Assembly (NCBI RefSeq): GCF_024746815.1
Contig: NZ_CP080525.1
Location: forward strand, 806,001-870,000
Direction of reading: 5' to 3'
DNA from: Mesorhizobium sp. AR07
GTDB lineage: Bacteria > Pseudomonadota > Alphaproteobacteria > Rhizobiales > Rhizobiaceae
Length of the DNA: 64,000 bases
Part shown: piece by piece, positions 18,491 to 60,531 of the stretch
How the letters are laid out: each line of letters begins with the position of its first letter
How positions within the stretch are numbered: the first letter of the stretch is position 1
Program-made: the position numbers and the translations under genes
Notes under the pieces: generated by a model
The model's input: the letters and a program-made list of their open reading frames with translations, nothing else
Database searches by the model: none
What the model was told of the DNA's origin: nothing

Positions 18491-18863
18491 CGGCATCCAC
18501 CCCGATCTCGTCATCCCCTGCCGTTGCTGCGGTCGGCCGCTGATCTCTCAACTGACCGTGGACGAAACCATCATAGCCGCGAGGCTCGCGCCGACCATGG
18601 CTGCCATCCTGCGCATTTTGGGCGATGCGAAAGGCCATTGGGTGTCCGGCTCGGAGCTGGTCGAGCGGCTATACGCGGAGGGCGGGCCCGTTTCGGCAAG
18701 GAACGCCATTAGCGTCCACATCCATCATATGCGCAAGCTGCTCGCAACGGTCGAGGCGGCCTTCGAGATCGACAACCACTCAAACTATGGCCGCCGGTTG
18801 ATTGCCGTCCCTGAGAGCCAGCGCGGACGCAATGCCACCGGCTACCGATTGGTGATGGAATGA
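18483..18863 (+). CDS. Winged-helix DNA-binding protein with N-terminal CxxC pair
   Basis: 126 residues. CRCCGRPL at residues 13-20 suggests a small metal site. Residues 35-105 resemble an OmpR/PhoB-type winged helix: LRILGDAKGHWVSGSELVERL, then AISVHIHHMRKLL as recognition helix and a wing ending GRRLIAVPES...GYRLV. No receiver domain is present. It ends 4 bases into the transposase gene. It may regulate the early operon or replication genes. Confidence 0.7.
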   Translation: MADGIHPDLVIPCRCCGRPLISQLTVDETIIAARLAPTMAAILRILGDAKGHWVSGSELVERLYAEGGPVSARNAISVHIHHMRKLLATVEAAFEIDNHSNYGRRLIAVPESQRGRNATGYRLVME

Positions 18864-21034
18864 AAGAGTGGCTGACCGCCCGCGAGATCGCAGCGGAAGC
18901 GTTGCCGGACTTGCCGACCTCGAAGCGAGGCGTCAACGAATTGATCGATCGCGAGGGTTGGAGCCAGAGCGCTCTCTGCCGCAAACGCATGGGTCAGGAC
19001 GGCGGCGGCGGGCTGGAGTACCACTTCGAACTCTTTCCGGTGCTCGCCCAGGTCGCCTATTCCCAAAAGTACATGGTGGTCGAGCCGGCGCCCGTGATGG
19101 CGCCGCCTGATCCCGATAACACCGTCTCCGCCAGGGCACAGGAAGAACGCGACGCAAGGCTGGCGATCGTCGCCGCCTTCGAGAAATTCAGTCATGGCCT
19201 CCAGCTCGGCTACGCGACGCGCGTCCAGGTGTTCTGCGACCGCTACAATGTCGGCATGATCGAGGTTTCAAAGTTCGTCCGCGAGACGATGCCCGCGATC
19301 TCCAAGCGCTCGCTGGCGCGCTGGCAGGCGACCAAGCGGGCCGGGAAAGCCAATTCGCTCGGTCACGATCCGGCCAAATCGCGCAAGGGCACCGGCGCGC
19401 TGGAAACAGCCAATGGCGGAGCCGTCAAGGCTTACATCCTCGGCCTCATAGCGCACCGGTCGCATTTGTGTGCCGACGATGTCCGGGTGCAGTGCCGGGC
19501 TGAGTTCGGCGATGTCCTGACGGTCGTTTCAAAAGGCGTTGAAACGGTCATTCCGATGCCGCCAGTGCGGACCTTCCAGCATGCTCTCAAGCATCTGAAG
19601 GTTCGATACAAGGTCGAGCTGCTCAAGCTCACCAACCCGGATCTCTATCGGTCGACAATGGCGCCGGCCGGCGTCGGCATGCTGCGCCACATCACGGAGC
19701 CGAACCAGATGTGGCAGATCGATGCCTCGCCGGTCGACGCGCTCTGTGTCGACGGCCGCCACTCGATCTATGCCTGCATCGACATCGCGACCAGGCGCAT
19801 GATCTTTCACGTCAGTCGCACACCTCGCGCTTCCGCCGTGGCGTTGCTGCTGCGCAAGGCCATCATCGCCTGGGGCGTTCCGGATCTCGTCAAGACGGAC
19901 AACGGGTCCGATTTCGTGGCGCGCGAGACCGAGCGGCTGTTCGCCTCGCTCGGCATCGAGGTCCGGAGATCCCGCGCCTACAGCCCGCAGGAGAAGGGGC
20001 ATATCGAGCGTGGCATCGGCACCTTCCAACGCAAGGTCGGCCCGCATCTGCCGGGCTTCATCGGCCATGACGTGACCGACCGCAAAGCGATCGAAAGCAA
20101 GAAGGCTTACGCCCAGCGGCTCGGCGAAAGCGACGCCGATACGTTCGGCGTGACGCTCACCGCAAGGGAGCTTCAGGACAAGGTCGATGAATGGGCTGAC
20201 ATCAAGTACCAGAACACTCCGCATGAGGGGCTGGACAGACGCACGCCCTTCCAGGCCGCCCTGGCGTCGACGCGCACGATCCGCAAGGTCGATGAACGCG
20301 CCCTTGACCTGCTGCTGATGCCCGTGGCCGGCGGCGGTGGCCGCCGCATCGTCCAGAAGCAGGGCATCGAGATCAACCGCTACCACTACATGCCGGAAAG
20401 GATCATGCCCGGCACCGAGGTGCTCGTGCGGATGAACACCGAGGACCTCGGGCGGGTGCATGCCTTCACCCTGGATGGCGGCGAGTATCTCGGCGATGCG
20501 ATCTGCCCCGAGCTGTCCGGCCTGAACCCCCAACAAGTCGCGGCCCAACGCAAGGCTGCCGCCAAGGCGTTTCATGAGGAAAGCACCGCGCCAATCCGCG
20601 CCAAAATGAGACAAATCGATCGCGGCGGCCCGGCGATCGACCGGCTGCTGGAGGTCGCGCGACGCGAAGTGCCGAACGTCATCGCGCTGCCGAAGCGCGA
20701 GGAGGTCCACGAGACGCCGCAGATCGTAGCGGCCATCACCGCGATGGAGAGCCGGACGCGGCCGCCCGAGACCAAGCTGTCCGGCCGCGCGGCGGAGATC
20801 CATGCCGAGCTTCAGGTCCAGCAGATCGCAGCGCCGCCCGGCGTGACGATGCTGCGCACCGAGGAAACGCCGCAACAGCGCTTTCGCCGCGCGCTCGACA
20901 TGCGCTCGCGCCTGGAGGCCGGCGAGCGCCTCTCCGATCAGGAGCTGCTCTGGCTGGGCGGCTACGAGGCCGGTCCCGAATTCAAGGGGCTGAAGGCCAT
21001 GTACGACGACTTTGGCGGCGTCATGAGCATGTGA
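18860..21034 (+). CDS. MuA-like DDE transposase
   Basis: 724 residues. The N-terminal part has a Mu-type DNA-binding domain (WLTAREIAAEALPDLPTSKRGVNELI). The catalytic core carries Asp288 (QIDAS), Asp347 (KTDNGSDF) and Glu383 (KGHIERG), with 35 residues between the second Asp and the Glu, as in rve/Mu transposases. A Mu-transpos_C-like beta domain follows (about 490-560), then a C-terminal tail that in Mu contacts MuB and ClpX. It cuts and joins the phage ends at the L and R sites. All catalytic residues are intact. Confidence 0.95.
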   Translation: MKEWLTAREIAAEALPDLPTSKRGVNELIDREGWSQSALCRKRMGQDGGGGLEYHFELFPVLAQVAYSQKYMVVEPAPVMAPPDPDNTVSARAQEERDARLAIVAAFEKFSHGLQLGYATRVQVFCDRYNVGMIEVSKFVRETMPAISKRSLARWQATKRAGKANSLGHDPAKSRKGTGALETANGGAVKAYILGLIAHRSHLCADDVRVQCRAEFGDVLTVVSKGVETVIPMPPVRTFQHALKHLKVRYKVELLKLTNPDLYRSTMAPAGVGMLRHITEPNQMWQIDASPVDALCVDGRHSIYACIDIATRRMIFHVSRTPRASAVALLLRKAIIAWGVPDLVKTDNGSDFVARETERLFASLGIEVRRSRAYSPQEKGHIERGIGTFQRKVGPHLPGFIGHDVTDRKAIESKKAYAQRLGESDADTFGVTLTARELQDKVDEWADIKYQNTPHEGLDRRTPFQAALASTRTIRKVDERALDLLLMPVAGGGGRRIVQKQGIEINRYHYMPERIMPGTEVLVRMNTEDLGRVHAFTLDGGEYLGDAICPELSGLNPQQVAAQRKAAAKAFHEESTAPIRAKMRQIDRGGPAIDRLLEVARREVPNVIALPKREEVHETPQIVAAITAMESRTRPPETKLSGRAAEIHAELQVQQIAAPPGVTMLRTEETPQQRFRRALDMRSRLEAGERLSDQELLWLGGYEAGPEFKGLKAMYDDFGGVMSM

Positions 21035-21065: not shown

Positions 21066-21818
21066 ATGACTTCAAATCATCTGCGCGTCAACCCTTCCGG
21101 CACCATCGCGCCGATCAAGAACGTCGCTGCCTGTCGCGCGCTGGTCGAGGCGCTGATCACCGCTCCGGCGCATGTTCCCAATGTCGGCATGTTCTCCGGG
21201 TTCTCGGGCTACGGCAAGACCATGGCTGCCGACTATTGCCGCAACACGACCGGCGCGATCATGATCGAGGTGTTCGACAGCTGGACGCGCAAGAAGTTCT
21301 GCGCCAGCCTGCTGATCGAACTCGGCGTGCCGAAGCCACGCGGCTCGCTCTCCGACATGATGGATGAAATCGTCGAGCGGCTCGGCGACGATCCGCGCCT
21401 GATCATCATCGACGAGGCGCACACGGCCGTCGACCGCTCCATGGTCGAGCTGATCCGGCAGATCAACAAGCTGGCGCATGCACCGATGCTGCTGGTCGGC
21501 GAGGAAGACCTGCCGAAGAAATTGTCGGCTTTCGAAAATGCGGACAATCTCGTGCTGGAGCGGGTGCTGGCGCAACCGTGCGATCTCGATGACGCCCGCG
21601 CCCTGGCTCGCCTTTATGTCCCGCGCGTCGAGATAGCCGATGATCTTTTGGCGGCGTTCGTGCGCGAGACCGGGGGGCGGGCACGGCGCATCGTGTCGAC
21701 GCTGCAGGCTGCAAACACCTGGGCCGTGAACACCGGCTCGGCCGAGATCGACGCTTCCAGCTATCGCGGGCGCATCGTGACCGGGGCGCTGCCGACGCGC
21801 CGCCAGAGGGCCGCCTGA
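21066..21818 (+). CDS. MuB-like AAA ATPase, target selector
   Basis: 250 residues with Walker A GFSGYGKT (45-52), Walker B IIIDEAH (113-119) and a sensor region near VGEEDLP. This is the AAA_22/MuB-type ATPase that filaments on DNA, attracts the transposase to target DNA and gives target immunity. It lies 31 bases after the transposase gene, the Mu A-B order. It lacks the N-terminal HTH of Mu MuB, like many MuB homologues in B3-like phages. Confidence 0.9.
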   Translation: MTSNHLRVNPSGTIAPIKNVAACRALVEALITAPAHVPNVGMFSGFSGYGKTMAADYCRNTTGAIMIEVFDSWTRKKFCASLLIELGVPKPRGSLSDMMDEIVERLGDDPRLIIIDEAHTAVDRSMVELIRQINKLAHAPMLLVGEEDLPKKLSAFENADNLVLERVLAQPCDLDDARALARLYVPRVEIADDLLAAFVRETGGRARRIVSTLQAANTWAVNTGSAEIDASSYRGRIVTGALPTRRQRAA

Positions 21819-39850: not shown

Positions 39851-40254
39851 AAGAGGCCGCGCGCGCCTGGGCACTGTCGAGAACCGGCCAGACCGATCCG
39901 ACAGCGCCATCGCGGCCCGATCACCAGGTGCGGATGGATGCGGAGGCGCTGGGCGTTCCAGCCGAGAGCCTGCCCGAGGCCGCAAACGACGAAGAGATCG
40001 ACGTGTTCAACGTTTGGGACATCAACATGCCGGTAGTGCGGTTGTTTCTCGACTGCGAGACGCAATGGCGGGTGGTCGCGCGTGGCATGGTCGGCATCCT
40101 TCACTATGTCGGCATCGACTATGCCTCGGCGTCGGCTCTCCTCGAGGCGCGTTCGCGCAGCGAGCAGCGCAAGCATCCGGCGCGATGGATCTTCCGGGAT
40201 CTCCGTGAAATGGAGCGCGCCGCTATCCCGATCTTGAACGAGGCCGGCCTGTGA
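39847..40254 (+). CDS. Frameshift extension of the tail chaperone (GT fusion, T part)
   Basis: 135 codons open in the -1 frame from the GGGAAAC site. The fused GT protein would be about 259 residues. The segment LKEAARAWALSRTGQ through IDYASASALLEARSRSEQRKHPARWIFRDLREMERA is helical. An ATG at 39802 in this frame lacks a ribosome-binding site, so independent initiation is less likely than frameshifting. The last codons overlap the tape-measure start (GTG 40251). Confidence 0.75.
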   Translation: MKEAARAWALSRTGQTDPTAPSRPDHQVRMDAEALGVPAESLPEAANDEEIDVFNVWDINMPVVRLFLDCETQWRVVARGMVGILHYVGIDYASASALLEARSRSEQRKHPARWIFRDLREMERAAIPILNEAGL

Positions 40255-41630
40255 CGCTGAACCTCGCCCTGGTCATTTCCGGCGAAGCCTCGGGCGCAAA
40301 GCGCGCCTCGGCCGAGACGGCGGCCGGCGTCCGCGAAGTCGGCGTCGAGGCCGGCCGCTCGGCCGCCGCCATCACGGCCGCCAATGACCAGGCTATCGCG
40401 TCGTCGCGACGGGTGACCGAAGCGCTGGTTGGGCAGACGGCGGCTCAGCGGCAGCTGCAGGCCGGCGTCGAACGGATGATCTCGGCGGGCACGCCGACCG
40501 ACGATGCGAGCTATCGCCAGCGCGCGGCCGATATCGCGGCCTACGGCAACAGTCTCGACGCATTGCGAGGGCGCTTCAATCCGCTCTTTGCCGCGTCGAA
40601 GCAGTATGAAGCCGAGCTGAATGACCTCAACGACGCGCACCGCCTCGGCGCGTTCACCAGCGTCAAGGAATATGACCTCGCACTGGAAGGCCTGAATTCC
40701 CGCTACACAATGCTCGCCCAAGGGCACGCGCGGACAGTTGGCGGGCTCGGAAGTGTCGGCGGTGCCGCGCAACTGACATCCTTCCAACTGTTGAACCTGT
40801 CACGCCAGGGCAACGACGTCGTCACCATGTGGCTGCTCGGCGCTCCGGCCATGCAGATCTTCGCCTCGCAGGCCGGCCAGGTCTACGATGCGCTTGAGAG
40901 CGGCCCCAGGGGCCTGAAGGGCTCGCTGGCCGGCATCGTCACCGGAGTTAGGTCAGCCGCCACCGCTTTGGGCAGCTTCATGCTGACGCCCCAGGGAATA
41001 GCCGTGGCGGCGGGTGCTGCTGTCGTGGCGGGCGTCACAACCTACATTCTTTCGACGAAGCAGCAGGTGAAGAGCCTCGACGATCTCCTGACACAGCACG
41101 CGGACGTGCTGCGCGGCATCGGCGATATCTACGAGAGCATCGGCCAGAAGGCCAAGGATGCGTTTTCGGGCGAGAGCGTGAACGGCCTTCGACTGCTTTC
41201 GTCGTCGACACAGGCGGGTCTTCAGATCCAGATCGCCAACCAGACCCAAGCAGCAATGGGCGACCTTGGTCGGTTCATCAATCCCGGTAAAAGCGCTGGC
41301 GGCTTCTTTGCGGCGAGCGGCGAGTTTAAGGAATTCGCCGATGAGATCGCCTATCTGAGAAAAACGGCAAGGGACGGTACGCCGGACATCGTCGGTTTTA
41401 TCAAGAGGGTGGAGGACAAGTGGGCGCTCGATGCCAACAATGCCGCTCTCACCGTCAGCGCCGGCAAGCTGAAGGAGTTGTTCAAAGATGCCGACGCGGC
41501 TGCCCGAGCGCTTCAGCAGCTCAAGATCATCCAGGACGAACTGGCGAGAAATGTCGGACCGGGCAACATTCCCCTTCGCAGAGGCAATCTGTCGACCGAG
41601 GATATGGGATCGTACGATCTATCATGTTGA
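40251..41630 (+). pseudogene. Tape-measure protein, N-terminal part (interrupted)
   Basis: The first 453 codons of the tape measure from a GTG start overlapping the GT stop. LNLALVISGEASGAKRASAETAAG begins a helical tape-measure domain; VTMWLLGAPAMQIFASQAGQV and a hydrophobic segment (GIAVAAGAAVVAGVTTYIL) follow. From codon 454 the true sequence is replaced by the recombinase element, which adds a few foreign codons and a TGA. The C-terminal part resumes at 44079 in the same phase. Confidence 0.9.
41608..41619. repeat. Left attachment core of the recombinase element
   Basis: GATCGTACGATC is a perfect 12-bp palindrome containing the shared octamer TCGTACGA (41610-41617). The same octamer recurs at 44079-44086 in the same codon phase of the tape-measure gene. 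Confidence 0.85.
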
Positions 41631-41635
41631 TACCC

Positions 41636-43699
41636 TTATTCGGTAGCAGGTGGGTTAAAGTCGAGGTGTTGCCGCACGCCGGATTTGAGCTCTTGTATTG
41701 CGGCGATTGTTGCAGCGGCATCTGGAAACAGAACGCGTTTGTGAAGGGCGTTTTGGCGGACACTGATCACGCCATTGCGGATTCGATGCCGGATCCAGGA
41801 GCGAGAAACGTCCGCTGCCATCGCTAGTTCAGACACCGTTAGCCACCCGGGAATGTGGTGAGAGCGGGCTGGTGTAGACTGCCTCAATACGCGATGGCGT
41901 TGTCGGACGATCTGGACTGTGCGCACAGGAACGTAGCTGCGGCGCGGTGAGCGGAAGCCTTCCTTAGTCAGTTTGGCCGCTATCGCCGCGTCGTCGTCCC
42001 CTTGATGAGCCAGTTCGAGCAGCCGGACCTCCATCTCGGCGCCGCGAGACAGGGCGCTCAAGGCATGCACCCTCGGCTCGACCTCGCGTTCGGTAACTTC
42101 ACCGCCTCGCCAAACGATGCGGATCGTAATCCGATCTCGGACCACCCGTTGCAGGATCACTTTGTCGATCAGGCTGCGTAGTAAGGCTTTCTTGCGTCCC
42201 CACTCTATGTCAGGTCTCTGCCAAAATTCGGGAAGTTGCGAACCGGCAGCGATAAAATCATTCTGTTCTGTCGGCGTCAGATCATCAGATTGACTTTGCA
42301 TTGCGCGACGGCGCTCAAGTGCATCCTCCGCTTGACGAAGCTCACGCAGAGCCCCCTCCCAACGGCGCTCCAACTCGGCCGCAATCAGGCGATTGTCAGG
42401 GTCAACCCGATTGTATTGCCGTTCTGCGAGCAGCGCTTGATAACGCAGCCGCTTGATCTGCTGCTCTTCAGCGCGCTCAAAAGCCTCGTCTGCCTGCTGA
42501 CGAGCATCTTTGGCGTGCATCAACTCGGCCAACTCGGCCGGACTGGCCGCCGCGAAGAGGGCCTCAACGACGCGGGCGTCGATGGGATCGGCTGGCAAAT
42601 GCTGGCATAAGGCTCCGCCCTGGCTGCGTGCCAGGAAGTTGCAGACGTAACGATTGCCGTTCTTGTATTCGACGCCCATTTTATGGCCGCATCGCCCGCA
42701 CCAGACAATGCCTTGCAACACCGCCGCGCCATCACGCGGCGCACCGCGTGTCTGGTTTCGTCGGTATTCAGCGTGATTGTCGCTCAGCATGGTCTGGATC
42801 CGCTCGTAACGCTCCCAATCGCAATAAGCAGGATAACGGTCTTTAACTACGATTTTCCACTCTGCCATTGGCCGGCGTCGCGAGATGATTTTACCACTCG
42901 CATACCTGGCGTGACAGGACTGGGTGCGGCCATAGACGAAGGCGCCGGCATAGGCCGGGTTCTTCAACATCCCGGCAAGCATGTTGGCAGTTGGGACGCG
43001 CCAGACAACGTCGCCAAATCGATTTCGCCGCGGTATGGTGAGCGCACGATCCCGCAAGGAACGGATCACTTTTCCGACGGTGCCCAACTCCCAAAATGCA
43101 GAGAATATCAGGGCAATCCGGTCCTGCACTTCCTGGTTTGAATCCTTCATCACGACACCATTGGTATCCCGCTCCAACCCGGCTGGTAACAGCAAAGCCA
43201 ACTCACCCCGTTCAGCCTTGCTGAGCAGACCAGCCGTCAGGCGGCCACGAAGCGTGTGCAATTCCACTTCCGAGATCGTACCCTTCAGGCCAAGCAACAG
43301 GCGCCCGTTGGCCGAGCCCGGGTCGTAAATTCCGTCGCGGTCGCCGATGAGGCATTGCCGATAGCCGCATAAATCGAGGAGTGGGTACCAATCGGAACAA
43401 TTGCGGGCAAGCCGTGTCACTTCATACGAGAGAACGATGCCAACTTCACCCAATGTGACGCGTCCAAGGAGATCTTTGAAGCCGGCACGGTGAGCCGCCG
43501 CAGCTCCACTCTGGCCAAGGTCCGCGTCGATCACTTCGATATTGGTGTCGTCCCAGCCGAGATCCCCCGCACGCTGATGCAATGCATACTGCAGCCGCAG
43601 GCTTTCCTGGTTGTTGACCATCTGATGTGGTGTCGATTGCCGGATGTAAATCACGGCTTTTCGGCACAAATGCTGGGTTGTTATCAGATCCGACATCAT
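41636..43699 (-). CDS. Large serine recombinase
   Basis: 687 residues. The resolvase domain starts at residue 15 with AVIYIRQS (nucleophile Ser22 in YxRxS), then SYEVTRLARNCSDW and GRLTAGLLSKAERGEL. A recombinase domain follows (about 190-300), then a zinc ribbon WCGRCGHKMG...YVCNF...GGALCQ (about 340-375), a long coiled coil (EAFERAEEQQIKRLRYQALLAE) and a C-terminal excisionase-like HTH (WLTVSELAMAADVSRSWIRHRI). It should integrate and excise the element at the TCGTACGA core. The start overlaps the stop of the upstream gene. It appears intact. Confidence 0.92.
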   Translation of the reverse strand: MMSDLITTQHLCRKAVIYIRQSTPHQMVNNQESLRLQYALHQRAGDLGWDDTNIEVIDADLGQSGAAAAHRAGFKDLLGRVTLGEVGIVLSYEVTRLARNCSDWYPLLDLCGYRQCLIGDRDGIYDPGSANGRLLLGLKGTISEVELHTLRGRLTAGLLSKAERGELALLLPAGLERDTNGVVMKDSNQEVQDRIALIFSAFWELGTVGKVIRSLRDRALTIPRRNRFGDVVWRVPTANMLAGMLKNPAYAGAFVYGRTQSCHARYASGKIISRRRPMAEWKIVVKDRYPAYCDWERYERIQTMLSDNHAEYRRNQTRGAPRDGAAVLQGIVWCGRCGHKMGVEYKNGNRYVCNFLARSQGGALCQHLPADPIDARVVEALFAAASPAELAELMHAKDARQQADEAFERAEEQQIKRLRYQALLAERQYNRVDPDNRLIAAELERRWEGALRELRQAEDALERRRAMQSQSDDLTPTEQNDFIAAGSQLPEFWQRPDIEWGRKKALLRSLIDKVILQRVVRDRITIRIVWRGGEVTEREVEPRVHALSALSRGAEMEVRLLELAHQGDDDAAIAAKLTKEGFRSPRRSYVPVRTVQIVRQRHRVLRQSTPARSHHIPGWLTVSELAMAADVSRSWIRHRIRNGVISVRQNALHKRVLFPDAAATIAAIQELKSGVRQHLDFNPPATE

Positions 43700-44078
43700 G
43701 GCTCGCCCTCCAGAGAACCATGCGGTTCCGATCGGGGTGATTCGGTTTCTGACGTCAGGCTATCATGCTCAGCCATATCGCCGGAACTTCGCGGCGCCTG
43801 CGCCTTTGCGCAACTGACCAGGCGAATAAAATCGCGAACGCTCGCAGTCGAAAGCTTGGCTGACGGCGAATCTGGTGCCGATGGATACAGATTGGTGGCC
43901 GAGATCGGAATCTTCAGGAGAACATCATCGCGGTAAACGACAAGAAGCTGACGATAGGCGCCGGCGCCGCTCGGTCCTGCCGCTAAAATGAAATCGCGCC
44001 CATAAAGAGGGTGTGCCGGATCAGTAACTGTTATGCGCTGATCATCTCCAAATCTAATTGGGGCATTAAGATGTGTGC
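43696..44078 (-). CDS. DUF5372-like accessory protein of the element (start supplied only on circularisation)
   Basis: The frame ends 43696 in an ATGATG overlap with the recombinase. Its body, RITVTDPAHPLYGRDFILA followed by LLVVYRDDVLLKIPIS, resembles DUF5372, small proteins often found beside such recombinases. In the integrated state no ATG or GTG exists between the element edge and the conserved region; the frame simply continues into the phage gene. If the element circularises, the other end supplies ATG at 41625-41623, preceded by AAGGG, giving an in-frame protein of 132 residues beginning MIDRTSTHLNAP. Confidence 0.75.
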
Positions 44079-44086
44079 TCGTACGA
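44079..44086. repeat. Right attachment core (TCGTACGA)
   Basis: Octamer TCGTACGA identical to 41610-41617; here it reads TCG TAC GAC in the tape-measure frame, just as TCG TAC GAT on the left. Confidence 0.85.
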
Positions 44087-46082
44087 CCAGTATCTTGCTG
44101 GTCAGCGCGTTTCGGCGCAGCGAGCACAACAGGCCTTCGAAGCGCAGCAGCAAGCACTCTATGCCAAGTCGCCAGCCGAATTGGCGGCGGCCGCCAGGGC
44201 ACAAGCAAGCGCGCAGTACAACGACAACGAAAATCCTGCCGCCCGCGCCGACCGGATCGAAACTGCCGGCAAGCTGGCTCTGGCGACCGCAAACAACACG
44301 CTGTCTGAAGCCCAGAAGGAGCGCGCCCGCTCGCTCGACCAGACGCTTGCCGGACAGCAGCTCGATATCAGCCTGATCGGCAAGACCGCAGGCGAGACGG
44401 CTCGGCTGCGGTTGGAGTTCGACCAGATCGCCCAGGTGCGCGCCGAAGCCGCGCGCAACAACGTCGCGGTCGACGAGGCCGAGATCCTGCGTATCAAACA
44501 AAAGGCAGCCGAATACGGCAAAGTCGCTGACGCTGCCGCCCGCGCCAATCTAGCCCACGACCTATCCTTCGAGCGCGACCAGCTCTTCCGTTCGCCGCAG
44601 GACCAGGACGTCGCCTCGCGGCTCCAGTCGGCCGGGCTGCCGGTCGACCTCAATTCCTATGAGGCCGGTCTGATCCGCGCCAATCAGCAGCTCGAAATCC
44701 AGCGCAAGCAATGGGAAGACATCCGCGATGTCGGCCGCGACGCCATCGATACGCTGCTCGACCCGGACAGCTGGAATAATTTCGGCGACGCGGCCAAGAA
44801 GATCGGCCTCGACATCCTGGGCGAGTTCACGAAGCTAAGCCTGAACAACCCGCTGAAGAACCTGTTCTATGGCGACAATTTGCCGACGCTGGACAGCGCT
44901 GGCGGCATCGGCGGCTTCATCGGCACGCTGCTCGGGGGCGATTTCGCAGGCGGCGCCAGCAAGTCGGTCGGCGCGATGTCGGTCAACGCCGGCAGCGTCG
45001 TCGTCACCGGCTCGATCGGCGCCACCGGCAGCCTCGGCAGCCTCGCTTCCAATGTCACGAAACTGCTGACAGGCGGCAACGACAACAGCGCGGCCGGCGC
45101 TGGCAACATGTCGCTGTTCGCCAGTGCCATCAAGTCGATCGAGAGCAGCGGCAACTATTCGGCCGTTGGTCCGGTCCTCGGCAACGGCGACCAGGCGCTC
45201 GGCGCGTACCAGGTGATGAAGAGCAATCTTCAGTCGTGGACGCAAGAGGCGTTCGGCAAGGCGATGTCGGCCAGCCAGTTCCTCGCCGATCCCGGCGCCC
45301 AGGACGCCGTGTTCCAGCAGCAGTTCGGCAAGCTCCTGTCCAAGTTCGGCAATTCGCAGGATGCGGCCTCGGCGTGGTTCACCGGCGGGCCGCTGTCGAA
45401 AAACGCCGGTGCGACCGACGTGCTGGGCACCACCGGCTCCGCCTATGTCGACAAGTTCAACGCCGCGCTGGCGAACCTCGACAGCACGACGACGGCGGCG
45501 ACGAAGAGCCTCGGCGGCTTCGGCAGCGGCCTCGGTCAGCTCGGCAACGCGCTCAACCAGTTTCCGGCGGCACCGTCCCTGGGCGGCGGCGGCCTCGGCA
45601 GCTGGCTTAGCAGCCTTCTTGGCGGCGGCATGTCGCTGTCACCGGCCGCTGCCGGAGACATCGCGTCGGGCTCTTGGGGCCTCTTCGACATAGGCGGCTA
45701 TACCGGCGACGGCCCAAGGCGCAAGCCGGCCGGCATCGTCCATGCCGGCGAAGTGGTCTGGAGCCAGGACGATGTTTCGCGGGCCGGCGGCGTTGGCGTG
45801 GTCGAAGCCATGCGGCTCGGCCGGCGCGGCTACGCCACCGGCGGCGCGGCGATCGAGGGCGGCTTCGCGATGCCAGCGACGGGCACCTATGGCGGCGGGC
45901 CGACCTGGTCGAGCAACGGCGGTTCGCAAACTCGGGAAGTCCTGCATCGCATCGTCGTCGAGGAAGGCCCGATGTTCCGGACCACCATCCGATCGGAAAG
46001 CCAGGATGTGGCCGTCGAGGTCGTGCGCGGCAACGACGCGGCCAGGGCCGACTATTACAACGCCGGAGGCAACCCGCGCTGA
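44079..46082 (+). pseudogene. Tape-measure protein, C-terminal part (interrupted)
   Basis: 667 codons in the same phase as the upstream half. A long helical region (AQRAQQAFEAQQQALYAKSPAELAAAARAQAS) is followed by a lysozyme-like transglycosylase domain (AIKSIESSGNYSAVGPVLGNGDQALGAYQVM, with catalytic-type Glu) near residues 350-460 and a Gly-rich tail ending with GGYTGDGPRRKPAGIVHAGE, typical of tape-measure C-termini. An ATG at 44073 lies inside the element edge, without a good ribosome-binding site. Restored length would be 1,120 residues, in the normal range. Confidence 0.9.
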
Positions 46083-54193: not shown

Positions 54194-55759
54194 CTACAGG
54201 CAAACTATGGCCAATTCGCCCTGAATGGTCGCGGCGTCTTGGGCGGGCCAACGTTGGTGGCTCCTGCAGTATTCCACAGCCGCTGTCTGCCCCTCAGGCT
54301 TTGCATACTTGACCGGGATGCCAGTCAACTCGGTTATCATCGGGGCAATCGCCCAAGGGTAAATCCAGTTCGAATCGTTGAACGCAGGAATCCCCGTTGG
54401 GATAGACGTTCCGGAATCGGCTGGATAGCCGACTACAGCGATTGTCTTCATGGCGGAGAAGTTTGGTAGGCCCTCCAGCCGCGCCATTAGGCGGATGGCC
54501 AAGTTATGGTCCCTCGTCGCGACCCGAGCCTGGTCAACGAAAATCTGATTGTTCGCCGCTATGAACGAGAACACCACCAGACCGAGAGCTGCGGAGAAAA
54601 CATGCCGTGGGATCACCACGCGGACAGTCAAGGCGACAACGGCTACCCCGGCCCATACAAGGCCGATCTGCGTCAGTATCCTCGGGGGCAGGAAGAGAAG
54701 AGTGAACAGTAGCGGGGCGCCCAACATGGCGAAGCCTGCTACGACAGGAGCAGCAACCACGACCACGCCGGCTATTATGGCGCCCCGCATATCGCTCGCG
54801 CGGCCAACCAATTCCACCAAGGCCGCGACGACGAATAACAACGGGATTGCGAGTATTGCCTTGGGCAGCAGATTGTTCCCGTAGACGCCGCCGGTTACAA
54901 AATGTCCGTACAAGAGGTTGAGCCCGAGTAGCACCCGGCTTGGGATATCTCCAAGGCCGATCATGACGCCTCGGGGATCTGTCCCATATCCATATGTCGA
55001 GACCTTGAGCAGGACCATATAGAGTGCGAAGCCGACGAAGAACGTCAGGATTCTGGCATAGAAGGTCCGGTCCCATAGGGTGTAGGAAGCAGGAACATCG
55101 TCGCTCTTGATGAAATGCCGGATTGCCCTCAAAGCGAGGTCGAAGCAGAGGAACACCGAAATATAGTTGATAGGGATCTGGTAGAGAGTCAGCCCGACCG
55201 CGAACAGCAGAGACGATAGCAATATCCGCCAAAGCCCGGGGCCTGCGACCATGATGGCGGCCACGGACAACACGAAAGCCAGAATGTGGTAAATGGCAAT
55301 CCCGCGAAACGTCAAAATCTCCGACGTGTAGGGGTGCGCCGCGATGATCACGATGAGAAGCGCCCGGATGAGATCGGGCAGATCGTAGGTCCAAAGTCGA
55401 AGGACAGCGTTGCCTATCCATGCGGACAGAATGACCGACGCCACGATACTTATAATCGGGGATCGAACCGGATCAAAGCCGACGAACCCAAACACTTCCG
55501 AAAGCCAGTATGTGCCAAAGCGGCCCTGACCAATCAGCGCTCCAGAGAGGGAAGAAAGCCCGTCAATGATCTGACGGTAGTCGTCAACGGCATAAGTGAA
55601 ATCGAAGGCGGCCTGGGCGCGGGCGAAAGCTACAAGCACAAGCGCAATCAGAAACGATCGGCGCTCGTCCTTTCTGATCAGCAATGGCGCCAGAAGACCG
55701 CCGAAAAAGGAATGAAAATCAGATGCCCCCGCTGGATCGCGGCCTACTTTTTCTAGCAT
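54194..55759 (-). CDS. GtrII-like membrane glucosyltransferase (serotype conversion)
   Basis: 521 residues, with about ten predicted membrane helices. FDFTYAVDDYRQIIDG near the N-terminus, then GRFGTYWLS, and a C-terminal periplasmic part with KTIAVVGYP. The pattern of the Glucos_trans_II family, which adds glucosyl groups to O-antigen in the periplasm from undecaprenyl-phosphate-glucose. Start ATG 55759 is chosen; TTG 55774 is in frame. It reads leftward, against the tail operon. Confidence 0.82.
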   Translation of the reverse strand: MLEKVGRDPAGASDFHSFFGGLLAPLLIRKDERRSFLIALVLVAFARAQAAFDFTYAVDDYRQIIDGLSSLSGALIGQGRFGTYWLSEVFGFVGFDPVRSPIISIVASVILSAWIGNAVLRLWTYDLPDLIRALLIVIIAAHPYTSEILTFRGIAIYHILAFVLSVAAIMVAGPGLWRILLSSLLFAVGLTLYQIPINYISVFLCFDLALRAIRHFIKSDDVPASYTLWDRTFYARILTFFVGFALYMVLLKVSTYGYGTDPRGVMIGLGDIPSRVLLGLNLLYGHFVTGGVYGNNLLPKAILAIPLLFVVAALVELVGRASDMRGAIIAGVVVVAAPVVAGFAMLGAPLLFTLLFLPPRILTQIGLVWAGVAVVALTVRVVIPRHVFSAALGLVVFSFIAANNQIFVDQARVATRDHNLAIRLMARLEGLPNFSAMKTIAVVGYPADSGTSIPTGIPAFNDSNWIYPWAIAPMITELTGIPVKYAKPEGQTAAVEYCRSHQRWPAQDAATIQGELAIVCL

Positions 55760-55797
55760 TTTAAAAGCCCCCAACCATCAGCCACACCCAGATGTGT

Positions 55798-56772
55798 TCA
55801 TACAGCCGTTTCCGTAGGTGGTGAAAACGTGGTCTCGCGAACGACGTACTGCGGCGAGTTATTCAGCCGGATATAGATGCGGCCGATATATTCGCCGAGG
55901 ATGCCTAGAAAGACCATCTGCAAGCCACCGATCAGGAGAATGGTGGCGATGATAGACGCCCAGCCCGGCTGCATTTCAGGATGCGTCAAGCGCTGGACTA
56001 CAATCAGCATCAGAAAGATGAGGCTTAGGGCTGCCATGCAGAAGCCGGTCACGGTAGCGATGCGAAGAGGGTAGACAGACGAGCCGGTGGCCATCTTCAG
56101 CCATAGTCCAACCGAGCGCCTTAGGTTGTAATTGCCGCGCCCGGTGAAGCGCTCTTGATGGGTGATGTCGATGGCCGCGATTGAGTTTGTCGCGCCAAGG
56201 ATCAGGCCATCGACGTAAGCGTAGGGGCCATCATAAGCGAGTATGGCATCGACAACCCCACGGCTCATCGCCTTGAACGATGAAAGATACAGGTCTCGAG
56301 GTTTTTTCAGAACCCAAGCTGCCACGATATCGTTGAGCCGGCTACCCCACTTCTTCCATGCGGCGTGCTTGCGTTCTTTGTAGTGGGTGTAGCAGACGTC
56401 ATAGCCGGCCTCGATCTTTTCGGCGAGCGCCAAAATTGCCGAAGGAGGGTGCTGGAGATCGTCGTCCATAACAATGACGATGCGACCGCGTGAATATCTG
56501 AGACCCGCCATGGTGGCGTTGTGCTGGCCGAAATTCTTGCGCAGGGAAAGCCCTCGGACCCAATGACATTCTTTGGCGCAGTCCTCAATCACGCTCCAGC
56601 TTGCATCGGGGCTGCTATCGTTGACGAGAACCAATTCATATTCGCCGTCATACTTGGTCCCGGCGAGTACATCGCGCACCTGCCGCACCAGTTCAGGAAG
56701 AACATCGGCGCTGCGATACACGGGGACAACGATCGATAGGGAGACAAAAGGGACTCTTTTCTGGACGTTCAT
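55798..56772 (-). CDS. GtrB-like bactoprenol glycosyltransferase
   Basis: 324 residues. A GT-A fold domain (SLSIVVPVYRSADVLPELV, VNDSSPDASW, MDDDLQHPP) and two C-terminal membrane helices (VTGFCMAALSLIFLMLIVV, IIATILLIGGLQMVFLGILG). GtrB moves a sugar from a nucleotide sugar to undecaprenyl phosphate on the cytoplasmic face. GAGGAAATTGCC precedes the ATG. Divergent from the methyltransferase gene. Confidence 0.87.
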   Translation of the reverse strand: MNVQKRVPFVSLSIVVPVYRSADVLPELVRQVRDVLAGTKYDGEYELVLVNDSSPDASWSVIEDCAKECHWVRGLSLRKNFGQHNATMAGLRYSRGRIVIVMDDDLQHPPSAILALAEKIEAGYDVCYTHYKERKHAAWKKWGSRLNDIVAAWVLKKPRDLYLSSFKAMSRGVVDAILAYDGPYAYVDGLILGATNSIAAIDITHQERFTGRGNYNLRRSVGLWLKMATGSSVYPLRIATVTGFCMAALSLIFLMLIVVQRLTHPEMQPGWASIIATILLIGGLQMVFLGILGEYIGRIYIRLNNSPQYVVRETTFSPPTETAV

Positions 56773-56870
56773 GGCAATTTCCTCAAAACCGGAAACTTGC
56801 AAGGACGCGCTTGTCGCGCGGCTGCTGCCGGTGGTAGTGGGTGGCATGCTATTAGCGGAGAAACTGCAAC

Positions 56871-57572
56871 TTGGGCAAGAACACAAATGGCAATGAGTTC
56901 GACGCATATCGCATCTCCTATTCGGAGGCTGTGAACAAGGCGATTTCCTTTTCCGGCTTAAAAGTCGATTTCTTCACGCGCGCCAAGGCCGCACGGCTGC
57001 TCGACCTTCTAGGGGGCACGCTAGGACCAGCCGAAAATCTTTCGGTTCTCGACGTAGGCTGCGGTATTGGGAACTACCACGCCTTGCTTCGTGGCAGGAT
57101 TGGCAGGCTTACGGGCGTCGATCCTTCCTCCGAATGCATCGACGAAGCGAGGCTGAGAAACCCCGACGTGAGCTATCAGATCTCGGATGGAGCAACGTTA
57201 CCCTTTGAGGATGGCGAGTTTGATGCCGCGTATGCGATCTGCGTCATGCATCATGTACCGCCTGCCAACTGGCTAAAGTTTTCCTCCGAGCTCGCTCGCG
57301 TCACTCGCCCCGGCGGCGCGGTGCTGATCTTCGAGCATAACCCATACAACCTTCTGACGCGCCGGGCCGTATCCACGTGCCCATTCGATGAAGACGCGGT
57401 CTTGCTAACAAAAAAGCAGGTGGCAGCATATCTCGAAGACGCGGGGCTGACGGACGTTGCGGGCCGCTACATCCTCACGGTTCCGGCTATCGATGGGGCG
57501 CTCAGGCGCATGGATGACGCATTCGGCTCGATCCCGCTTGGCGCCCAATATTACGTGATGGGCCGGCGCTAA
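56871..57572 (+). CDS. SAM-dependent methyltransferase (cargo)
   Basis: 233 residues from a TTG start after GGAGAAACTGCAAC. Class I methyltransferase motifs: LDVGCGIGNYHALL (SAM loop), GVDPSSECIDEAR, and ICVMHHVPPANW. Belongs to the serotype-conversion cassette; it might methylate a sugar or the bactoprenol-linked intermediate, but its substrate is unknown. Confidence 0.8.
   Translation: MGKNTNGNEFDAYRISYSEAVNKAISFSGLKVDFFTRAKAARLLDLLGGTLGPAENLSVLDVGCGIGNYHALLRGRIGRLTGVDPSSECIDEARLRNPDVSYQISDGATLPFEDGEFDAAYAICVMHHVPPANWLKFSSELARVTRPGGAVLIFEHNPYNLLTRRAVSTCPFDEDAVLLTKKQVAAYLEDAGLTDVAGRYILTVPAIDGALRRMDDAFGSIPLGAQYYVMGRR

Positions 57573-59420: not shown

Positions 59421-60531
<1,111 letters not shown>

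Follow-up and report, generated by a model that had tools for sequence, protein, structure and literature searches.

A two-gene serine-recombinase element in the tape-measure gene of a Mu-like prophage of Mesorhizobium, with a likely TA exchange and an accessory gene that circle closure may complete

Introduction

The DNA analyzed here, a stretch of 64,000 nucleotides from Mesorhizobium sp. AR07 that we refer to as the window, contains a prophage tape-measure gene split in two by a serine-recombinase element, and thus raises the question of whether the interruption constitutes a switch operated by the phage or the trace of a mobile element that preys on it. The skin element and the comK prophage provide established instances of in-frame interruptions that are undone by precise excision, and the initial annotation of the window had likened the locus to them, while also allowing for a parasite that disables the phage. 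In this work we delimit the element, locate its relatives in this and other genomes and weigh the competing explanations. We consider it quite probable that the locus harbors a mobile element made up of a serine-recombinase gene and one accessory gene. This element likely inserted into the tape-measure gene of a Mu-like prophage through exchange at a TA dinucleotide; it splits a gene that precise exit would restore, and closure of the element into a circle would complete its accessory gene. The best reading of this insertion is that it is recent, and it is probably off-target.

Results

The window carries the genes of a Mu-like phage, including a Mu-type transposase (18860-21034, plus strand), a transposition ATPase (21066-21818, plus strand), an endolysin, a terminase, a portal and a minor head protein, together with head protease, major head, connector, tail and fibre genes; the remaining phage ORFs searched against protein families are open frames. 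Past the tail genes, the minus strand encodes an adjacent GtrII-type glucosyltransferase and family 2 glycosyltransferase (54194-56907), and an IS110-family transposase gene is located at 59503-60531.

Both halves of the interrupted gene match phage tape-measure families. The first part (40251..41630, plus strand), assigned from such families, including TMP_2, and from its sequence, consists of host DNA up to position 41612 and a shared TA, followed by element DNA up to its stop (...G-S-Y-D-L-S-C-stop). The second part (44073..46082, plus strand), assigned from tape-measure families and the ORF list, has a listed GTG start that lies inside the element. As the initial annotation had noted, the two halves carry the octamer TCGTACGA in the same codon phase, at 41610-41617 and 44079-44086, where both copies read S-Y-D in the tape-measure frame; no third occurrence exists in the window. 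The distance between octamers (2,469 bp) is a multiple of three and the halves total 1,120 codons, in agreement with an in-frame interruption of the gene by a serine-recombinase element, the removal of which, we infer, would leave a single 1,120-codon gene. The octamer alone is weak evidence, since 0.49 occurrences are expected and at least two were found in 8 of 100 shuffles. The joint rises above chance because the five copies of the element in this genome have the same ends and because three relatives are collinear across it. The halves were searched separately against the ORFs of relatives, in genome sets with one genome per species, and the second half was matched in 19 of 146 genomes, its own included. 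In three relatives (L035, L046 and L051), which alone make up the test of the joint, as the others lack a match close to it on one of its two sides and were not counted, both halves are matched at exactly consecutive positions of one uninterrupted open frame, the alignment of the first reaching residue 454-456 and that of the second beginning at its residue 1 or 19, and the joint neither adds nor removes a residue. The comparison with related tape measures that the initial annotation had called for came out in favor of its joint.

While present, the element likely deprives the phage of a full tape measure and of a normal tail, since a shortened tape measure and a separate fragment whose start is weak make normal tails unlikely. 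Precise exit, as judged from the joint, would make the gene whole again.

The element spans 41615..44081, between the two shared TA dinucleotides, and is 2,467 bp long. At the left junction (TCG-TA-CGA, 41610..41617), located through comparison with the junctions of other copies, TCG belongs to the host, TA is shared and CGA belongs to the element; at the right junction (TCG-TA-CGA, 44079..44086), TCG belongs to the element, TA is shared and CGA to the host. Wherever both junctions could be read in the clade of this element, TA is present at both ends, and no further base is shared between the ends throughout the sites, with host DNA running up to TA on one side and resuming after it on the other. 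The adjacent TCG and CGA are the two ends of the element in close copies, and a Rhodovastum relative differs at one end. The reading of the octamer as a duplicated 8-bp target was rejected on these grounds, the central TA alone being common to both ends at other sites; the match looked like a duplication because the host also carries TCG and CGA in the tape-measure gene. The arms of the element form imperfect inverted repeats around TA.

Two ORFs make up the entire gene content of the element. The large serine recombinase (687 aa; 41636..43699, minus strand) is intact and contains Resolvase, Recombinase and zinc-ribbon domains, all three above Pfam curated cut-offs, with a GIYDP motif at residue 124. 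The presence of these three domains in one protein and of a two-base core common to both junctions agrees with a large-serine-recombinase element. The body of the small accessory ORF (43696..44082, minus strand) has no nearby start and its stop overlaps the recombinase start (ATGA), while an outward-facing ATG (41623..41625, minus strand), with AAGGG just upstream, would provide its start if the ends of the element were joined. The structural model of the accessory protein (mean pLDDT 69.8) displays a few strands and one helix and yielded no fold match at E≤0.001. DUF5372 (PF17342, cut-off 25 bits) was approached most closely by the relative P0033, with 21.4 bits, and did not match the accessory ORF of the window at E≤1.

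Five full copies of the element are found in the genome: the one in the window and those at C5:26928, C5:160871, C5:590613 and C5:719550. Four of them, each at a different site, are identical over 2,461 bp (0 mismatches), which points to very recent movement; the C5:160871 copy is one base longer and its recombinase is frame-shifted. These recent, identical copies suggest recombinase-driven excision and integration. The listed contamination of the genome is 10.97%, so that contigs C1 and C5 might in principle stem from two organisms, and the presence of identical copies on both is compatible with one source organism or two.

The C5:23004-31910 region (L052) contains an older copy of the element, broken near the G-T-I-S-E motif of its recombinase by another serine-recombinase element, with CTTC common to both broken edges. 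A fresh copy of the element lies inside this second serine-recombinase gene, leaving recombinase genes nested in one another.

All four C5 copies interrupt other genes for serine recombinases, always at one and the same tyrosine codon within the catalytic domain, the three identical copies in three unrelated recombinase genes and the longer copy in yet another. To extend this observation we considered a clade set defined by recombinase identity of at least 67%, or by fragments more than 90% alike in DNA, with copies from Mesorhizobium, Rhizobium, Sinorhizobium, Microvirga and Rhodovastum. These copies occupy 14 distinct sites, three of them read at one junction only, and 13 of the 14 are the tyrosine codon of serine-recombinase genes, the remaining one being the tape-measure gene. 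In this count, C5:160871, L068 and L069 were taken as one site because of a common flank; outside it stand the short loci L067, L070, L071, L078, L079 and L098, as well as hit H7 and any second location within a plasmid record. The target motif is [IVTL]-Y-[DE], mostly within D-x-D-G-x-Y-D-P, and its location within the catalytic domain makes inactivation of the target enzyme likely. All nine upstream target pieces submitted to Pfam, out of 13 (L094, with an internal stop, and three others were left out), matched Resolvase and ended at profile positions 89-100 of 145. Nine of the 14 sites hold the element in the orientation seen in the window and five hold it reversed; a palindromic core predicts both orientations.

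The tape-measure gene is, by contrast with these sites, most likely a secondary, off-target landing, helped by the local match to the element's own joint TCGTACGA, because beyond the core it does not resemble the 13 recombinase sites. A weight matrix built from those sites did not single it out: at width 8, 14 of the 952 other TA sites in the window score as high or higher, and more do so at greater widths. Its score (-3.1) compares with 3.4 to 21.8 for left-out true sites, whereas the GIYDP of the element's own recombinase reaches 15.8 at the same width, scoring like a true site, so the element's own recombinase gene looks like a target.

A sister clade, with recombinases of approximately 51-54% identity on rhizobial and other plasmids, shares the layout of the element, and its members measure about 2.48 kb. 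Its flanks point to a different target: all eight flank pieces analyzed with Pfam, from 11 TnpB-like pieces, correspond to IS66 TnpB and end at profile position 90-91 of 101, with both orientations represented by four pieces each. Read from the sequences, the core here coincides with positions one and two of codon x in M-L-x-[ED]-G-[IM]-D-W or close variants of this motif. In Microvirga ossetica, a 57% relative is present in two copies, one in a DDE transposase gene and one in a DctP gene.

Across the wider family, the two core dinucleotides agree in 15 of 18 copies and differ in three (L082 TT/CT, L084 CA/CT and L090 AG/TG), unlike in the TA clade; in L090 the left flank derives from a different gene than the right flank. 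The differing cores may mean that the sister clade tolerates mismatched cores.

Joining of the element ends in silico brings ATG-N6-CG-core in frame into the accessory ORF in all 18 copies with both ends, representing eight lineages. The joined ORF has 132-134 codons in 17 of them and is frame-shifted inside, at 65, in the other. We placed the ends manually and looked for the start in the form of the ATG-N6-CG pattern, so that the common frame is the result of this analysis; L086, with its 5' end cut, was dropped, and L081, the same element as L080, was not entered. Given that the eight lineages share ancestry, this amounts to conservation and not to eight independent trials. In all lineages examined, down to approximately 51% recombinase identity, the accessory body lies at one end and the ATG at the other.

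It might be argued that the joined ORF is a by-product, the outward ATG serving some other purpose and the normal start residing in the element or in host DNA. Such starts do occur. The public annotation of the M. mediterraneum copy places the accessory start inside the element (291 bp), and several database accessory proteins, of which 30 of 35 were read as sequence, are short internal versions. In P0003 and P0004 the start (GTG or ATG) is supplied by the target gene in the minus orientation, and a similar host-supplied start may be deduced for P0001, P0006 and P0008. Yet the ATG-N6-CG pattern ahead of the core and the open frame across it persist throughout the eight lineages, and a strong AGGAGGGG precedes the outward ATG in much of the IS66 clade, the window copy having AAGGG only. 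We regard the by-product explanation as unlikely. Among the 35 database relatives, P0005, P0023 and P0033 begin like the joined form, as judged from the proteins alone, on contigs of at most 784, 2,159 and 2,502 bases. Host-supplied starts in the minus orientation imply that expression from the circle only is no strict rule; completion only in the circle would fit the orientation seen in the window, but not serve as a general rule.

In the DNA of L073 and L095, also in the minus orientation, a GATGG or GGTG of the target provides a start for the accessory ORF in another frame. A partial accessory protein from Mesorhizobium sp. M0060 (P0021) is encoded on a contig of 2,482 bases, about one element length, which might represent either a collapsed repeat or a circle in linearised form.

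A second alternative holds that the tape-measure insertion is a dead end, a single landing by an immobile element that leaves the prophage permanently tailless. Serine integrases usually require a helper for excision, and no such helper was identified here. The recombinase is broken in one of the genomic copies, and the joined form was found in none of 397 genome assemblies for the IS66 clade and, for the element's own clade, in one of 146 genomes, where the left junction of the window itself accounts for the hit, at 2 mismatches. The intact recombinase of the window and the very recent movement suggested by the four mismatch-free copies (2,461 bp) speak against immobility, and we deem a dead end improbable.

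A developmental switch, by which the element would keep the tape measure off in the lysogen and leave on induction, was set aside as very improbable even though the joint is precise, in-frame and scar-free and satellites that leave prophage late genes on induction offer a precedent (PMC10111431), because identical copies reside in unrelated genes of the same genome, the recombinase has no relative at E≤1e-40 among 50,697 phage records, relatives align through the joint without the element and neither of its two genes is a phage-type regulator. The parasite that the initial annotation had offered as an alternative fits better than a skin- or comK-like switch. Nothing was found pointing to excision timed to phage induction; viral contigs gave no confirmed match to the recombinase and two weak matches to the first tape-measure half.

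Discussion

Several known systems share features with the element described here. Like the skin element and the comK prophage, it interrupts a gene in frame in a manner that precise excision would undo. In contrast to them, it is multi-copy and has sites in unrelated genes, and we found no indication that its excision is programmed; where skin and the comK prophage recur in the same gene across strains, 13 of the 14 sites of this clade fall in recombinase genes and the tape-measure site appears once. XisF, of the fdxN element, and the Ccr proteins of SCCmec are related recombinases of gene-interrupting or island elements, but the window recombinase scores far below their curated cut-offs (89.1 bits against 375 for the NCBIfam XisF profile; 31 to 34 bits against 700 to 900 for the Ccr profiles).

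Helper-embedded satellites (HE-PICIs), as portrayed in the available part of PMC10111431, are elements that integrate in prophage late genes, which become whole again after excision, and in this they resemble the element, integrated as it is inside a prophage late gene that its exit would restore. They differ in having several gene zones and in their integrases, all of which are placed in a single clade whose tropism is for prophage late genes, and the text contains no mention of the word serine; the element has just two genes, encodes a serine recombinase and usually inserts into recombinase genes. AlpA, primase and replication genes, which make up the PICI gene set, are absent from its two ORFs. 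The departure of HE-PICIs from their late gene on induction, as given there, makes the switch idea testable (PMC10111431).

The nearest precedent for entering other mobile elements that we have located is provided by streptococcal elements with serine integrases, which, according to the portion of PMC4701971 at hand, enter traG of another conjugative element, generate 2-8 bp direct repeats and use secondary sites in genes, and some of which, at rumA, swap the ends of two genes upon integration. These elements are large and conjugative, many carry three integrases, and neither a recombinase-gene nor an IS66 target is given for them in that portion. Large serine recombinases at large recognize a dinucleotide core and some have many sites (PMC10083194); within the available main text of that source IS66 is absent and no recombinase-gene target is named, and its multi-targeting clade is marked by DUF4368, a domain that is not among the Pfam matches of the window recombinase. 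Among the open-licence papers listed by our literature searches, no title or abstract opening dealt with recombinase elements targeting recombinase genes or IS66 tnpB.

According to the mechanism that we propose, the recombinase would join the ends of the element into a circle, the form in which the element would move. Closure of the circle would bring the start-less accessory ORF, located at one end, together with the ATG of the opposite end, and the accessory protein and, via the overlapping start, the recombinase would likely be made mainly by the circle. Such boosted expression would favor quick re-insertion, and the circle would then enter a GIYDP codon or, rarely, another site.

A broader interpretation, which we lean toward by a modest degree, is that of a family of minimal serine-recombinase elements preying on mobile elements, in which each clade would target one conserved codon of a rival recombination gene, the accessory gene would remain split until circle closure and occasional misfires would silence a phage tail gene without a scar. 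The codon would be the tyrosine of GIYDP in serine recombinases or codon x of M-L-x-[ED]-G-[IM]-D-W in IS66 TnpB, and entry in either orientation would break the enzyme of the rival.

If these readings are true, a serine recombinase seeks out the catalytic core of other serine recombinases, including those of its own type, in what would be an arms race fought in one codon. The palindromic two-base core and the occurrence of both orientations offer a natural setting in which to test the choice of direction by serine integrases, and the joining of start and body by circularisation would constitute a simple switch between an integrated, quiet state and a free, active one. For the phage, the loss of its tail would be reversible and scar-free.
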